Positions 30,258-36,256 of a stretch of 44,880 bases of DNA are shown here, piece by piece. The position numbers and the translations under genes are program-made. Location of the stretch: positions 1 through 44,880 of the forward strand of contig CANCPA010000011.1 in assembly GCA_947379895.1 (NCBI GenBank), written 5' to 3'. The notes beneath the pieces were generated by a model. That model was not told the DNA's origin and did not search any database. It worked only from the letters and a program-made list of their open reading frames with translations. Position 1 is the first letter of the stretch. The number at the start of each line of letters is the position of its first letter. The DNA is from Chitinophagaceae bacterium. Lineage in GTDB: Bacteria; Bacteroidota; Bacteroidia; Chitinophagales; Chitinophagaceae.

Positions 30258-32966
30258 ATGAAAAAGAGTTTTACCCATTGGCTAAATAGCCACAAGTTAA
30301 AAAACCTGTCAATGAAGACAGTAGTGTCGGCAGGATTGTTTATGATGGTTAGTATGGCTGCAAACAGTCAGACAAATTATTACATCAGATTGGATTCTGT
30401 AAATAAGAGTGCAAAAGCTGTAAAACTTAAGCCATCAATTCCAAGTTCTTGGACTGATAATCCTATAGGCATTAAAGGCAATTCCCCCGCTAATTTTACT
30501 ACAGCTAATCAAATTTTTAATATCCAAACAAATGGATATGTCAATGCACTTAATTGGAAAGTTTCTGGTGCAGGTTCTAAGATTGTGGTAGGTACTAAAG
30601 ATTCTATCATAACTAAGTTTACCACCTCTAGTCCGTTGAATGCAACTGTTGATGTATATGCAGGTTCTAGTTTGACTTTAACCTGTGATAATACGGATAC
30701 CCTAACATTTGGAAATCTAGGTGTCAATAGCACAATAATTTATTCAGGCAGTTCAAATGTTTGTCAAAAAGTGATTCCATTTAATTATGTGAATCTCTCC
30801 CTATCTCCTAGTGCAACCTCACTTCCCTTAGACTTACCAACGTCTCCAATTAGTATTTCTGGAGTATATACAACGAATAGTAAATTTGCTAGTATTTATG
30901 GCAAGACCATTATTTTTAATGGTTTAGGAGGTCAAGCGATCCCAGCAGGTAACTATTACAACCTAACAATTTCTGGTAATAAATTAGTACCCGATACATT
31001 GAAGGGGGTTGTGAATGTGGCAGCAGTTTTTTCAGATATTTCAACAGGTGCTCAAACACTTTCCCATACAGTTTCACCTACAGGAGTTGTTACTGCAGCA
31101 ACCTTATCATTTAATGGATTCTTACCTCAAACTGTTTCAGGAAGAGAATTTTACAACTTGAGTTTCACAAATGGACAAGCCTTCACTGTGGCTAGTTTTA
31201 GTAATGCAAACAAAACAATTACACTTTTTCAAAAAGCCCCTGAATTAGCCATTGGTCACAAAATCTCTGGTAATCCCGAAGCGAATGGTACAACTTTAGT
31301 TTTAGACACTTCAACTGTTATCACCAATATTACCAATGATACGATTCTAACGCTTAGTAATGCACCAACAATCAGAGGATTTATAAATCATGCAGGTCAT
31401 GCTACCGGAGTAAAGCCTGATACCATTTATATCACCGCTTATAATTTGGCTGATTCTTCAATTAAATTGGCATCTGTACCCACTACTTTATTAGTTGGTG
31501 ATACTTTAAACAGTCAAATTGTTGCCAATAAAACACTTGCAATTGGAATTTCAGGAAATTCCGTTACACTGTCTGCCTTAAAGTCGATAAATAATACCTA
31601 CAATTCAGGTTCTATTACAATTGGTAGTGCAGACAGGAAACCTTCTGATAAGACAATGATTGGAAATTTTAGTATTCTTAACTCTTTTTCAGCTAGTGCA
31701 ACAGGGTTAGGTACGGCGGTTTTAGGGAAAGTTAATACTACTGGGGTTCCTACATTTAGTTATATCGGCAAAAAACAGAGAGTTGCGGGCATTATTTACA
31801 ATAATTTGGTGATTAATCAGGATAGTGCAACAGCTGCAGGTCTTTCAGGACCTGCTTTGGTTTTAGGTACATTTACTTTGGCTAGTGGTAAATTAAATAC
31901 GACAATTGGTAATATTCTAACACTTGATGTGAATGCAACTTTCCCTCCTGTTTCAAATGACACTTTTTTTGTGAGTGGACCATTAGCAAAGAAATTTAAT
32001 TCTACGGCTCCATTTACTTATCAGATTGGACAAGTAGATAAAGCAGGAATTAGTTATCCTAGAACAGCAGTAATAACCCCTGCAACTGCCGATACGAAAA
32101 CTTATATCGTATCTTATGTTCGTAATAAAGTGATAGACTCTTTAATTTCGCCACAATTAAATGCTATCGCAGATACATTTTCCTATTACAATGTAATGGT
32201 ATCAAATTACTCAGCGGGGTCAGATACATCTGCTAAAATTTCCTTTCAGTTCAACCCTACTTATGCAATCGATTCCAATTTAGTATTAGCTCATGCTATC
32301 AACGGTCAGTTTGTAGCTGAATCTCCTGCATTTTTAAATTCTACAGGAACAAAAACAATCTTAACTACTAATGGCTACGATAATATATTCGGTCATTTTA
32401 CACTTGCTACAGCAAGTGCTACTTATCTTCCAGTTAAATTTGGTAGTATAACGGCTGATGCAGTTGGAAATGTTATAAAGGTTAGCTGGCAAAGTCTTTC
32501 TGAAGTAAATGTAAGTAGCTATATCGTTGAAAGTTCTGTTGATGGTGTTGAATTTACTGCTAAAGGAATCGTTATCGCTAAAGGTGCCTCAACCTATTCT
32601 TTTAATGATAATGCACCTAATACCGGTATTAGTTACTACAGGATAAAAGAAGTGGATAAAAATGGTATTGCTAGTTACAGTAGTGTGATTTCTGTAAAAG
32701 AAAGCACAATTACAACTTCATTGTCTGTATTTCCTAACCCATTAGTAAATAGGAAATTAAATTTCGTATTAAACAACCATGCTGCTAATTACAACTTAAA
32801 AGTTACCAATATTCTTGGTCAATCAGTCTTAGCTAAAACAATTTCTCACTTAGGTGGTTCCGCATCTTATAATGTGACTTTACCAAAGGAAATTAAAGCA
32901 GGAACTTACTTTGTTAAGTTTAGCAGTAGTAATTATTCTACTACAAGAACAATTATTGTAGAATAA
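30258..32966 (+). CDS. Large surface protein with fibronectin-like and T9SS sorting domains
   Basis: 902 residues. The signal peptide is long (cleavage about 38, SMAANSQ); a start at Met19 (30312) would give a more ordinary one. The main body is Ser/Thr/Asn-rich beta sequence without catalytic motifs, with recurrent patterns like GNYYNLTISGN and GREFYNLSFTNGQ that suggest degenerate beta repeats. Near 745-815 there is a fibronectin-like domain (VSSYIVESSVDGVEFTAKG, ISYYRIKEVDKNG), followed by a type A T9SS sorting domain (LSVFPNPLVNRKLNF, ILGQSVLAK, AGTYFVKF). The architecture parallels the giant adhesin, and both are probably exposed structural or binding proteins. A strong terminator follows directly. 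The promoter module upstream is shared with the alpha-galactosidase gene, which hints at co-regulation with the PUL. Confidence 0.85.
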   Translation: MKKSFTHWLNSHKLKNLSMKTVVSAGLFMMVSMAANSQTNYYIRLDSVNKSAKAVKLKPSIPSSWTDNPIGIKGNSPANFTTANQIFNIQTNGYVNALNWKVSGAGSKIVVGTKDSIITKFTTSSPLNATVDVYAGSSLTLTCDNTDTLTFGNLGVNSTIIYSGSSNVCQKVIPFNYVNLSLSPSATSLPLDLPTSPISISGVYTTNSKFASIYGKTIIFNGLGGQAIPAGNYYNLTISGNKLVPDTLKGVVNVAAVFSDISTGAQTLSHTVSPTGVVTAATLSFNGFLPQTVSGREFYNLSFTNGQAFTVASFSNANKTITLFQKAPELAIGHKISGNPEANGTTLVLDTSTVITNITNDTILTLSNAPTIRGFINHAGHATGVKPDTIYITAYNLADSSIKLASVPTTLLVGDTLNSQIVANKTLAIGISGNSVTLSALKSINNTYNSGSITIGSADRKPSDKTMIGNFSILNSFSASATGLGTAVLGKVNTTGVPTFSYIGKKQRVAGIIYNNLVINQDSATAAGLSGPALVLGTFTLASGKLNTTIGNILTLDVNATFPPVSNDTFFVSGPLAKKFNSTAPFTYQIGQVDKAGISYPRTAVITPATADTKTYIVSYVRNKVIDSLISPQLNAIADTFSYYNVMVSNYSAGSDTSAKISFQFNPTYAIDSNLVLAHAINGQFVAESPAFLNSTGTKTILTTNGYDNIFGHFTLATASATYLPVKFGSITADAVGNVIKVSWQSLSEVNVSSYIVESSVDGVEFTAKGIVIAKGASTYSFNDNAPNTGISYYRIKEVDKNGIASYSSVISVKESTITTSLSVFPNPLVNRKLNFVLNNHAANYNLKVTNILGQSVLAKTISHLGGSASYNVTLPKEIKAGTYFVKFSSSNYSTTRTIIVE

Positions 32967-32991
32967 AATCGCTTATTAAATAATTAATCTC

Positions 32992-33027
32992 AACAGCCTC
33001 CGCAAAAACGGAGGCTGTTTTATTTTT
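32992..33027 (+). terminator. Intrinsic terminator after the 902-residue surface protein
   Basis: A perfect 11-bp stem (AACAGCCTCCG at 32992-33002, CGGAGGCTGTT at 33009-33019) with loop CAAAAA is followed by TTATTTTT. It lies 26 bp after the stop codon. Confidence 0.93.
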
Positions 33028-33197
33028 AAGCAAAAATTATATTATGAAAGTTTATGTTACTACTCAGGTATTTTACCACAAGGGTAATAAGATTTTGAAC
33101 AAAGCAACACAATGAACAGTACACATTTTAGGTACTTACCTGCCAATTATTTAAAAAGAAGTCCTTGTTTTCCTTGTTTTTTCTTCGTTGCCTTTGT
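33028..33197. other. Non-coding sequence preceding the group II intron
   Basis: No gene is seen. It is AT-rich with TTTTACCACAAGGG and CCTTGTTTTCCTTG patterns that loosely resemble 19020-19160. It forms the 5' flank (5' exon) of the intron. Confidence 0.5.
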
Positions 33198-33913
33198 GTG
33201 TGTCAAGAGTGATAAGAGCGAAAGCGATTATTACGCAATTGTATGAATGATGGAAGTAGGTCTTCCGTACACGCTTTACAGCAGGAGTGTACAAACCGCC
33301 TCAAGGTGCTTTATTCAAAAGGTAAGGTATTGAACGTTGGGGTTAAAAGGTGTCATAAAGGCATCAGGTGAGTGTAATGGAGTTGAATGAAAATGAACCA
33401 CTGATGACGTATCGAAACAACAAAGACGAAGACAAAACTGATGTTGGCAAGGGCTGTCAGGACAATTGTAACGGGTGGCTGTCTATTGGTTACAAGTCTT
33501 CCGGTATTCAGGTGGCAAGAACATTACACAGGCGTTTATATGAAACGTGAGAAACTTCGCTGACAATGTGCTATCGAGCAGCAACGAAAAGCGAGTTGTC
33601 GTTACCAAGGCTATTGGTTTAGCTGGGGTCATCATCGTTGCCGAACCATTCGAACAAAAGCGGATGAGGAAGTGTCAGAAAGTGGCGGACTGAATTGTAG
33701 TAGTGAAGAAGTTCTTGTAATGAGGATGGAGCGAAGGATTCAGCTCATTCGTTTGTACCAAGAAAGTCAACCTGAATTAATTCAGGGAGGAACGAGTTTG
33801 GCTCAATAATGCGTAAAATTCCTTTTATGCAGAATGAGAAGAGCCGTGTGAAGGGAGACTTTCAAGCACGGTTCTGTGGGAGGCTTGGGCTGAAATGCCC
33901 TTGCCTACTCGAC
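33198..33913 (+). ncRNA. ORF-less group II intron (ribozyme)
   Basis: The 5' end reads GTGTGTC (33198; a shift by 2 nt is possible in the GT run), fitting the GUGYG boundary. Domain I-like sequence includes GAACCACTGATGACGTATCG (33396-33415) and TTCCGGTATTCAGGTGGCA; a domain III-like GGATGGAGCGAAGG follows. Domain V (33841-33874) is exactly 34 nt: an 8-bp lower stem with the AGC triad, a 2-nt bulge, and a 6-bp upper stem capped by a GAGA tetraloop. Domain VI follows with GGGAGGC pairing to GCCU-A-CUC, leaving a bulged A at 33907, seven nucleotides from the 3' end GAC (33913). Domain IV is only about 100 nt and carries no reverse-transcriptase frame; a GGGAGGAACGAG there may be a relic of the lost ORF's ribosome site. 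ACAAAG (33420-33425) can pair with CTTTGT at the end of the 5' exon as a candidate EBS1-IBS1. Confidence 0.9.
33841..33913 (+). ncRNA. Group II intron domains V and VI
   Basis: Domain V occupies 33841-33874 and domain VI about 33876-33913. Both have the canonical pairings, the GNRA tetraloop and the bulged branch-point adenosine, so the catalytic core appears intact at sequence level. Confidence 0.9.
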
Positions 33914-34015
33914 GGTAAAAACACATGAGTAGTAACAAGTTTATTCAGAATTTTCTAAGGTAAAATGATATATTTCTATCAAATGAACTTGTTTTATAAC
34001 CTAATAAATTGCTGA

Positions 34016-34105
34016 ATGAAACAAATAGGCACATAAATGCGACAATAACAAACGGTCAACCAATAGCTTGTACTCTACTTTTGCTTAAAGAAATTAATTG
34101 CAATG
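34016..34105 (+). promoter_or_regulatory. Promoter/leader module, copy B (alpha-galactosidase operon)
   Basis: Aligned to 30041-30131. It holds TGCGACAATAACAA (34038-34051) and TACTTTTG (34076-34083), a perfect TAnnTTTG box, and ends in ATTGCAATG, where the ATG at 34103 is the start of the alpha-galactosidase frame. A transcription start near 34090 is inferred. Confidence 0.7.
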
Positions 34106-36256
34106 AAAAGATTGTGCATAATGAAAAGATTGGGGATATTCACTTTATTAATGGTTATTACAGCTAATTTAATTGCTAATAGCAGTCCTCAAATCATCTA
34201 TAAAGACAACGATGCATCTTACAGCATTCAGTGGAATAATCAGTTTGCTCAAATTAATAATATTTCGCCAGAAATTGAGATCAATGACAAGTGGGTATCT
34301 GTAAGTGAATTTAAAAGTATTAAATGGGTAAAGAAAGAGGGTACACGTTTGAGCGAACCAAACAATTATACAGGTAAAGTTGAGTATTTGTACCTTATTT
34401 GTGAAAACCATCCTTTGATTTCTAATTTTACCATCAAATTTGAATTGATGGATGGTCGGCCTTATTTGGTCATGAACTCTTCACTTACAGCCACTGAGAA
34501 ATTCAAATTAGGGGGAATTAGATTATTTAATTCTACAAAAGAAAATGTTGTTTTGCCCGGAAATAGTAAAGATTGGCTGCTATTTAATGAAAGTGCATCT
34601 GCGCCTCATACGGGTGCAATCATGTACCCCTATCAATTAAACACTAAGGTGGCAAAATCTGGCAGCTTTTCTAAAGCGCATACAGGTGTTTGGCTGAGTA
34701 TGTTGGTGAATAACAAGAAAAATTGTGCATTCTCTTTTGCAAGTATCTCAAGTGAATTATGGCCAAATAACTTTAAATGGGAATTGCCAGTAGAAAACGA
34801 TTTCAACAAATTAAAAATATCGGCACGCAGTGGAGCTATTTTTGAAAGAGAAAAGATATGGGTTACAGCAGGTAACACCATCACTACCGATGCCTTTTTG
34901 GTGGGTTATTGGGAAAATCAAAGACCTACAAAAATATTATTGGAAACAGGAAAAATCATGGGAGAGAATGTTCGCAAAGGGAAGCCGATGCATTGCCCTG
35001 AACCTGGTTGGAGTTCGTGGCATACCTACGGCAGGTACATAACAGAAAAAGAATTTCTTACATCTGCCGATTTTATCAATAAAAATTTAAAAGAATACGG
35101 TTGGAAACAGGTACAAATTGATGGGGGATGGTGGACAAATCCAGGGTTATACAAGGTAAACGATTCCCTGTTTCCTCATGGCATTCGTTATTTATCCAAT
35201 TATGTTACTGATTTAGGTCTTGATTTTGGACTTCATGTTAGCCCTTTTCGTACAAATCCTACAGACCCCATAACAGCACAACACCCTGACTGGATTTTGA
35301 AACCTGTTCTTTCTAAAAAGGCTGCAAAAGGTGATGACGAAATGGAAACAACCACGGGTACCGTTTATGTGGATGGAAGCCACCCCTCTGTTCCTGGATT
35401 TTCTGCTGCCCGTTATCAACAAATAGTAGAAGGGTATCGACCTTCGTTTATGAAATGGGATCATACTTATGGCGGCTTAGAAGAAGGTAAACGCTACGAT
35501 TCAACAATGACATTTATGCAAGCACATAACAAAACAATTCGGGCTATCCGTAGTGCCTTACCTGAAAATTTAATGGTTACTCGTAGTATGGGTTATGTGT
35601 TTGGTGCCTTAGAATGTTATGATGCCATGCGTATAGGAAATGACATTAATCATCCGGGTTATAAATCAGAATCAGAGCCATATACTAATATTACTTATGG
35701 CAAAACATTGGGTACCATCGAAGATGGTCAAGTAGAAAAAGGATTAATCAGATTTGCAAGAGCCGTATCGCAAAATTATTATATTCATAAAAATATTGCG
35801 ATATGTGACCCAGATGCTTTTTTTGTTTCTCCTCAATATACATTAGATGAAGCTAAATGCCACATGACATTAGAAGCTATTATGGGAGGCCTATTCTTTT
35901 TTGGGGATAAAGTGGAATCACTACCTGCCGAAAGGTTAGAACTATTGAAAAATAGAGATATTATAGCCGTAAATAAATTAGGGGTACATGCTATTCCACT
36001 TGATTTGTTTACAGGGGTTGATATTCCAACTATTTGGAAATTGGAAACTAAAGATCGTCTTATCATAACTATTTTTAATTGGCTTGATACGGACGTTACA
36101 AAAACATACAATCTTAAAACAGATTTTGAGTTAAACAATTCAAAATATAAGCTTACTGAAATATGGACTAAACAGAATTTCAGTATTGCATCGGATAAGT
36201 TAACGTTAATTCAACCGCATCATACTGTGAAGATTATTGAGTTTCAAAAGTTGTAA
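34103..36256 (+). CDS. Clan GH-D alpha-galactosidase-like glycoside hydrolase (GH36/GH27 type)
   Basis: 717 residues. Two in-frame ATGs six codons apart (34103 and 34121) both precede a signal peptide (MKRLGIFTLLMVITANLIANSS). An N-terminal beta-sandwich (about 25-290) is followed by a (beta/alpha)8 barrel: PGWSSWHTYGRYIT, WKQVQIDGGWW, FGLHVSPF, then FMKWDHTYGG with Asp453 as the predicted nucleophile, and RIGNDINHPG with Asp514 as the predicted acid/base. A C-terminal beta domain (NWLDTDVTKTYNL) ends the protein. These motifs match GH36/melibiase-type retaining enzymes that release alpha-linked galactose. It opens the plus arm, 69 bp before the first of four sulfatase genes, with mutarotase and galactokinase further down, consistent with a galactose-containing substrate. 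A related clan-D specificity (alpha-N-acetylgalactosaminidase, or a sulfated galactose) is not excluded. Confidence 0.9.
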   Translation: MKRLCIMKRLGIFTLLMVITANLIANSSPQIIYKDNDASYSIQWNNQFAQINNISPEIEINDKWVSVSEFKSIKWVKKEGTRLSEPNNYTGKVEYLYLICENHPLISNFTIKFELMDGRPYLVMNSSLTATEKFKLGGIRLFNSTKENVVLPGNSKDWLLFNESASAPHTGAIMYPYQLNTKVAKSGSFSKAHTGVWLSMLVNNKKNCAFSFASISSELWPNNFKWELPVENDFNKLKISARSGAIFEREKIWVTAGNTITTDAFLVGYWENQRPTKILLETGKIMGENVRKGKPMHCPEPGWSSWHTYGRYITEKEFLTSADFINKNLKEYGWKQVQIDGGWWTNPGLYKVNDSLFPHGIRYLSNYVTDLGLDFGLHVSPFRTNPTDPITAQHPDWILKPVLSKKAAKGDDEMETTTGTVYVDGSHPSVPGFSAARYQQIVEGYRPSFMKWDHTYGGLEEGKRYDSTMTFMQAHNKTIRAIRSALPENLMVTRSMGYVFGALECYDAMRIGNDINHPGYKSESEPYTNITYGKTLGTIEDGQVEKGLIRFARAVSQNYYIHKNIAICDPDAFFVSPQYTLDEAKCHMTLEAIMGGLFFFGDKVESLPAERLELLKNRDIIAVNKLGVHAIPLDLFTGVDIPTIWKLETKDRLIITIFNWLDTDVTKTYNLKTDFELNNSKYKLTEIWTKQNFSIASDKLTLIQPHHTVKIIEFQKL

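Follow-up and report, generated by a model that had tools for sequence, protein, structure and literature searches.

A group II intron without a reverse transcriptase gene in a Chitinophagaceae genome: intact core, conserved domain IV and a probable helper intron

Introduction

Movement of group II introns is thought to need a reverse transcriptase (RT), and an intron carrying no RT gene raises the question of whether it is a relic or works with a protein made elsewhere. Such an intron, 716 nt long, lies within the DNA analysed here (the window: 44,880 nucleotides from a Chitinophagaceae bacterium, assembly GCA_947379895.1, contig CANCPA010000011.1; its genome is G000 below). A 2015 review describes bacterial group II introns without an open reading frame (ORF-less) as rare and as nearly always accompanied by related RT-bearing introns, and it states that introns lacking IEPs are no longer retromobile (PMC4424553).

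Results

Structure of the intron

The intron was matched by cmscan, over the full model length in each case, to RF01999, which covers part of domain I (D1; 92.5 bits, E 1.2e-17), and to RF00029, which covers D5-D6 (33839-33913; 64.6 bits, where 40 is the gathering score; E 1.4e-10). Read from the sequence, D5 has 34 nt with AAG facing one U; the bulged A of D6, seen in the sequence and in the cmscan alignment, lies 7 nt before the 3' end; and the intron begins with GUGUG and ends with AC. The group II features found were the D5 triad with a GNRA-type loop, a D6 bulged A 7-8 nt from the end, a folded D1-D3, and EBS1-IBS1 pairing at the insertion site. D4 measures about 95 nt. The intron contains no ORF above 60 aa, and comparison with five RT proteins and with the ORF region of a related RT-bearing intron (C23, below) gave no significant match to RT remnants (best E for the proteins 0.17, antisense); a decayed RT gene within D4 was considered and likewise gave no significant match. 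Group IIC introns are described with a CGC triad and an EBS1 pairing of 3-4 bp (PMC7923331); by those features the window intron, with its AGC triad and 6-bp EBS1, does not look like a group IIC intron, yet the best PDB match of the related C23 RT is the GsI-IIC RT.

Table 1. Features of the intron and its insertion site, in window coordinates.
Feature	Position	Strand	Basis
ORF-less group II intron, 716 nt	33198..33913	+	cmscan, genome search, empty sites
D1, part matched by RF01999	33252..33369	+	cmscan
D4 without ORF, conserved RNA fold	33744..33838	+	D4 alignment and model
D5 (AGC triad, GAGA loop)	33841..33874	+	sequence and cmscan
D6, bulged A at 33907	33875..33913	+	sequence and cmscan
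IBS1 CUUUGU, in 5' exon	33192..33197	+	EBS1-IBS1 test
EBS1 GCAAGG, pairs with IBS1 6/6 (two G-U)	33447..33452	+	EBS1-IBS1 test
Candidate EBS2 GACGAAG	33425..33431	+	possible partner CUUCGUU at 33183-33189, by eye; alternative CAAC/GUUG
Repeat, left part (5' exon side)	33056..33197	+	genome search, alignment; ends read from sequence
Repeat, right end (3' exon side)	33914..33936	+	alignment; ends read from sequence
Terminator-like hairpin after upstream gene	32992..33019	+	terminator/promoter scan

Intactness of the core was assessed by aligning D1-D3 of 17 introns, 5 of them ORF-less and 12 RT-bearing; the alignment gave a consensus of 119 pairs, 74 of them changed on both sides. The window intron keeps 116 of these pairs, compared with 112-119 in the RT-bearing rows; in the remaining ORF-less rows the numbers are 113, 116, 116 and 94, the last being G372b, in which 16 pairs are gapped. 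The EBS1 element was spotted by eye first and could be placed in 18 of the 21 introns having a known 5' exon, including two weak rows (G372c, truncated and non-pairing; G6C186, with its loop cut by a contig end). Across these 18 introns the own EBS1-IBS1 pairs summed to 171, compared with a mean of 87.3 and a maximum of 137 when partners were swapped (0 of 20000 permutations reached the own sum), and the related ORF-less introns of genomes G256 and G378 have perfect 6-bp pairs each. The covariance, the EBS1 pairing and the empty sites described below disfavour a relic or a chance similarity. The original prediction, made from the letters of the window, of an ORF-less intron of 716 nt with an apparently intact core, a canonical 34-nt D5, a D6 bulged branch-point A, a GUGYG 5' end and about 100 nt of D4 with no RT was borne out, and the covariance search that it proposed matched with both models. 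It had held that a D1 lacking EBS and alpha-alpha' elements would make splicing impossible; as regards EBS1, the element is present and pairs with the 5' exon.

Insertion site

A search of the genome with positions 33100-34000 returned 43 matches, of which one is the window, two belong to a single related intron, and 40 are places matching a palindromic dispersed repeat of about 165 bp that the intron interrupts (some of these places being pieces of one copy). Joining the intron flanks (...GCCTTTGT / GGTAAAA..., the slash marking the junction) restores an uninterrupted member of the repeat; when 16 of the 40 places were aligned with the joined flanks, 15 of the 16 continued over the junction, as judged by eye. 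The intron boundaries are exact by this comparison, and the empty sites give the same ends as originally predicted. That the target is a palindromic repeat had escaped the original prediction. The whole empty repeat has a predicted fold of -52.7 kcal/mol, its ends read GTTACTACTCAGG.../...TGAGTAGTAAC, and it is possibly a MITE. The same repeat is the target of both the window and the C23 introns and, by eye, of some introns (C46, C80) in genome G006.

No ORF of at least 120 aa contains the intron. It had been placed between a terminator and the promoter of an alpha-galactosidase gene; the terminator-like hairpin was found, and the promoter was not, a scan of 32900-34200 for sigma-70-like sites (the one type covered) giving four matches, all on the minus strand and about the number expected by chance, with none to serve the intron. 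A hairpin as the general target of these introns was considered and found to be weak (mean z -1.18 at 16 sites, -0.16 in 95 control windows, p 0.017), and upstream of the window insertion site itself an 80-nt test gave z -0.2, no hairpin beyond chance. Several insertion points fall within a predicted hairpin, on its 5' side (L071, about 483/2398; L055, about 2147/2865; L173; L172; L171; e.g., GGGGCTGGA / CATTAAAAATGTCCAGCCC), reminiscent of IIC and integron-associated introns.

A related RT-bearing intron in the same genome

The RT-bearing relative whose presence in the genome had been proposed as a check was found at G000:C23:4532-6457, 77% identical to the window intron over 540 nt and 96% over D5-D6, at a different point of the same repeat family. 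It and its relatives in the family share with the window intron the ribozyme type (RF01999 and RF00029) and the 5' and 3' ends, and differ in that the C23 intron carries a 1.2-kb RT gene in a D4 unlike that of the ORF-less introns. The RT, intact, was read over 412 residues (open frame 421), has a YADD motif and a GIIM domain, and matches the group II RT/maturase profile TIGR04416 at 396 bits; nothing else in the 5.3-Mb draft matches RVT_1. The nearest RT in a named record, from a Ferruginibacter MAG, is 71% identical, and the genus of the window genome is accordingly probably Ferruginibacter or a close neighbour. D5-D6 was matched four times in the genome, on contigs C23, C140 and C279 and in the window. 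L066 (G000:C279, 1-555) and L065 (G000:C140, 1-147) are D5-D6 matches of another intron type on contigs that begin inside the intron; on C279, 474 bases with a D3-like stretch precede D5, and this intron may be a second ORF-less lineage, since the only RVT_1 match of the genome is elsewhere.

Near-identical copies in another species

Relatives were sought in 99 genomes, own included, of which 17 had any match. In G006, another species of the same genus, a copy on contig C156 is identical to the window intron at 692 of 697 nt (>99%), the five differences falling, by our own domain assignment, in D2 and D4; a copy on C25 is >99% identical over 203 nt, and C8 holds a full-length ORF-less copy at 82%. 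Contigs C156 and C25 both begin inside the intron, without a 5' flank. The 3' flanks of the G006 copies differ from that of the window and among themselves; that on C25 opens with GGTATAAA, near to GGTAAAAA of the window, and then diverges. The miaB gene on C25 is only 76% identical to that of the window genome, which rules out mis-binned DNA of the window species as the source of C25 (the check covers C25; C156 could be a contaminant), and the gene region of the window, introns apart, is matched in G006 just by patches of 67-75%. Likeness between the introns thus greatly exceeds that between the genomes, a pattern consistent with recent movement or transfer. A protein search of G006 gave no RT of the C23 type; its RT-bearing intron types were seen as RT ends before D5, among them an end of 21 residues on C139, and in many of its contigs one end falls inside an intron. 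The window genome, a draft of 401 contigs in which repeats may be collapsed, yielded a single copy of the ORF-less type.

Relatives in other genera

Among 394 genomes of the family (own included), 46 had DNA matches with an E of 1e-10 or lower. The ORF-less type is present from 5' to 3' end in G256 (667 nt; D5-D6 67.9 bits) and in G378 (665 nt; D5 looks damaged and scores below the Rfam gathering score), and as 3' parts alone in G287 and G346; because of the damaged D5 and of these 3' parts, some copies are taken to be relics. Partial matches were found in 46 plasmid records, 0 of which covered 80% of the query. ORF-less introns with different D4s occur in G372 (G372b) and in G089, a genome of another family. 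The latter has two, L190 (contig C7, about 660 nt, start set by eye) and L194 (contig C4, reversed, 814 nt), as well as an RT-bearing intron on its contig C23. In G012, L109 (1232-1577) and L105 are very short introns that match RF02001, with D5 about 100 and 360 nt beyond and no match to an RT of the C23 type; five more D5-D6 matches there showed no D1 match.

A conserved domain IV

The RT-less D4 fold is common to introns of six genomes of the family in five genera (the window genome, G006, G378, G256, G287 and G346). In an alignment of the six made from sequence only, D4 forms 34 pairs with 91% of cells paired, and 14 pairs are changed on both sides; 0 of 500 shuffles reached this and slid versions were 34-44% paired. 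These controls are biased towards the structure, which had been obtained from those six sequences. The number of additional pair types was not unusual (79/500). A D4 model built from these sequences and run with stricter filters matched 6 of 394 family genomes, in five genera, which are the genomes used to build it, and in an order-wide draw of 396 genomes the window genome alone; no further genus was added by either search, and the five-genera count therefore rests on the DNA search. The matches run unbroken from D3 to D5, so that an RT gene would not fit in between. Over 54 sources the model scored 109-133 bits on eight D4s, 44 bits on a G256-type fragment truncated where its contig stops, and no more than 29 bits elsewhere, whether RT-bearing or not. 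As an independent finder of such introns the model was set aside, six of its eight full matches being its building sequences and the other two near-identical G006 copies.

Discordant histories of D1 and the 3' part

In the D1 tree the window and G006 C8 introns group with the RT-bearing C23, L071 and G319 (100/100), and those of G378 and G256 with the RT-bearing G271 (95/99). A single ORF-less clade was rejected (AU p 3.2e-5 for the whole ribozyme, 1e-13 for D1 alone), which makes an origin in one deletion followed by simple descent hard to maintain and prompted a mosaic reading. In a tree of D3 plus D5-D6 (137 columns; the long-branched G362 and L074 were left out of the segment trees) the five ORF-less introns come together (74/77; seen in 76% of 200 bootstrap trees), and imposing the five-member D1 group there costs 38.6 log-likelihood units; neither a window, C8 and C23 group (AU p 0.118) nor a group of the four introns that share D4, with G372b outside it (p 0.08), was rejected by this segment. 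Over D5-D6 the G256 intron differs from that of the window at 1 of 75 places and C23 at 3. Quartets setting the window and G256 introns against those of G319 and G271 gave counts of 3 to 52 in D1 and 15 to 0 in D3 plus D5-D6 (Fisher p 1e-12), and the same with L071 gave 5 to 50 and 15 to 0; four quartets with C23 gave 2-53, 1-52, 3-72 and 3-78 in D1 and 3-1, 3-2, 2-1 and 2-2 in the 3' part (p 0.001-0.016). D1 and D3-D6 thus look, with moderate support, to have different histories, making the introns mosaic. The simplest reading of the discordant trees is that an RT-less 3' part recombined with resident RT-bearing introns; gene conversion, or too little signal in the short 3' segment, is a possible explanation.

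Discussion

We consider it likely that the window intron is an intact, non-autonomous group II intron, spliced and mobilised in trans by the RT/maturase of a related intron. The core, the exon pairing and D4 are intact and constrained-looking, a related intact RT is encoded in the genome, and near-identical copies occur at other sites; for these reasons a protein from elsewhere, one of the two options that the original prediction had offered, is favoured. The intron is probably not a relic, because a 77% relative with an intact RT shares its genome. From the sequences we infer the following course: the intron RNA would fold into domains I-VI and recognise its exons by EBS1-IBS1 pairing; splicing and reverse splicing would be aided by the RT/maturase of a related intron in the same cell, the C23 intron being the candidate; and the intron would have arrived by retrohoming into the palindromic repeat between two genes. 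The D4 of C23 differs from that of the ORF-less introns, which makes recognition by the C23 RT uncertain.

It is unlikely, although it deserves weighing, that the window holds a recently retrohomed copy that is now dead and persists because, in an intergenic repeat, a failure to splice has no consequence. The location inside no long ORF, the lack of a sigma-70-like site on the intron strand, the single copy in the genome, and the damaged or truncated copies in G378, G287 and G346 would all agree with this; against it, no damage is visible in the window intron, whose D1-D3 pairs, D5-D6 and EBS1 pairing are preserved, and the five differences from the C156 copy fall in D2 and D4. Splicing without any maturase, as has been speculated for the Clostridium tetani intron C.te.I1 (PMC4424553), would suit a compact RNA with a complete core, but we regard it as very improbable here given the related intact RT in the same genome and the near-identical copies at other sites, which call for movement. 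Rather improbable too is that separate introns lost their RT genes independently, in which case there would be no common ORF-less lineage and the D4 likeness would be an old retained state: by D1 the ORF-less introns do form two groups, each beside RT-bearing introns, and those of G372b and G089 have other D4s, yet the sequence and fold of D4 and D3 are common to the introns of all six genomes, the D4 model gives no more than 29 bits at every other tested locus apart from the G256-type fragment, and no RT remnants were detected.

A tentative proposal is that the RT-less D3-D6 with its own D4 is a long-lived RNA parasite of RT-bearing introns which, on entering a new host, recombines with a resident intron and takes its D1. 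This is somewhat doubtful, since the support from the 3' part is moderate, the site counts against C23 itself are only 3 to 1, the D5 of G378 is damaged, and the 137-column segment, with G362 and L074 left out, rejects neither alternative grouping. If it were true, a captured D1 would give the parasite the target recognition of the resident intron and a fit to the resident maturase, and the parasite could survive longer than any single helper and move from one genus to another.

The nearest known system is that of Thermosynechococcus elongatus, in which ORF-less TeI3 introns are mobilised by the IEPs of related TeI4 introns, the trans action having been assayed (PMC2882425). As described there, the likeness extends to introns without RT beside related RT-bearing introns in one genome, and to families with different EBS elements and targets, many intergenic and some in an insertion element. 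In the TeI3 introns both ends of the ORF persist as remnants (PMC2882425), whereas none were detected in the window intron; the conserved, covarying D4 in five genera and the seemingly different histories of D1 and D3-D6 belong to the present introns. For ORF-less introns of Trichodesmium erythraeum and of Listeria phage LPJP1 an RT/maturase in trans has been proposed (PMC4649490, PMC12350094); these have other hosts, and those of Trichodesmium are described within protein-coding genes. We regard the present intron as of the known ORF-less, trans-mobilised kind; what is new is that no ORF remnants were detected, that D4 is conserved across genera and, probably, that the ancestry is mosaic. In the open-licence literature, group II introns with Chitinophagaceae returned only resistant sludge bacteria, and ORF-less introns with Bacteroidetes returned RT phylogenies.

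Reliance on a borrowed protein is often proposed as a stage in the origin of spliceosomal introns from group II introns. In a single family, five genera hold an ORF-less intron type with a constrained D4, of which two species that differ at a quarter of their miaB bases have near-identical copies; in these introns one can study, in a natural setting, how a non-coding retroelement survives with a borrowed protein.
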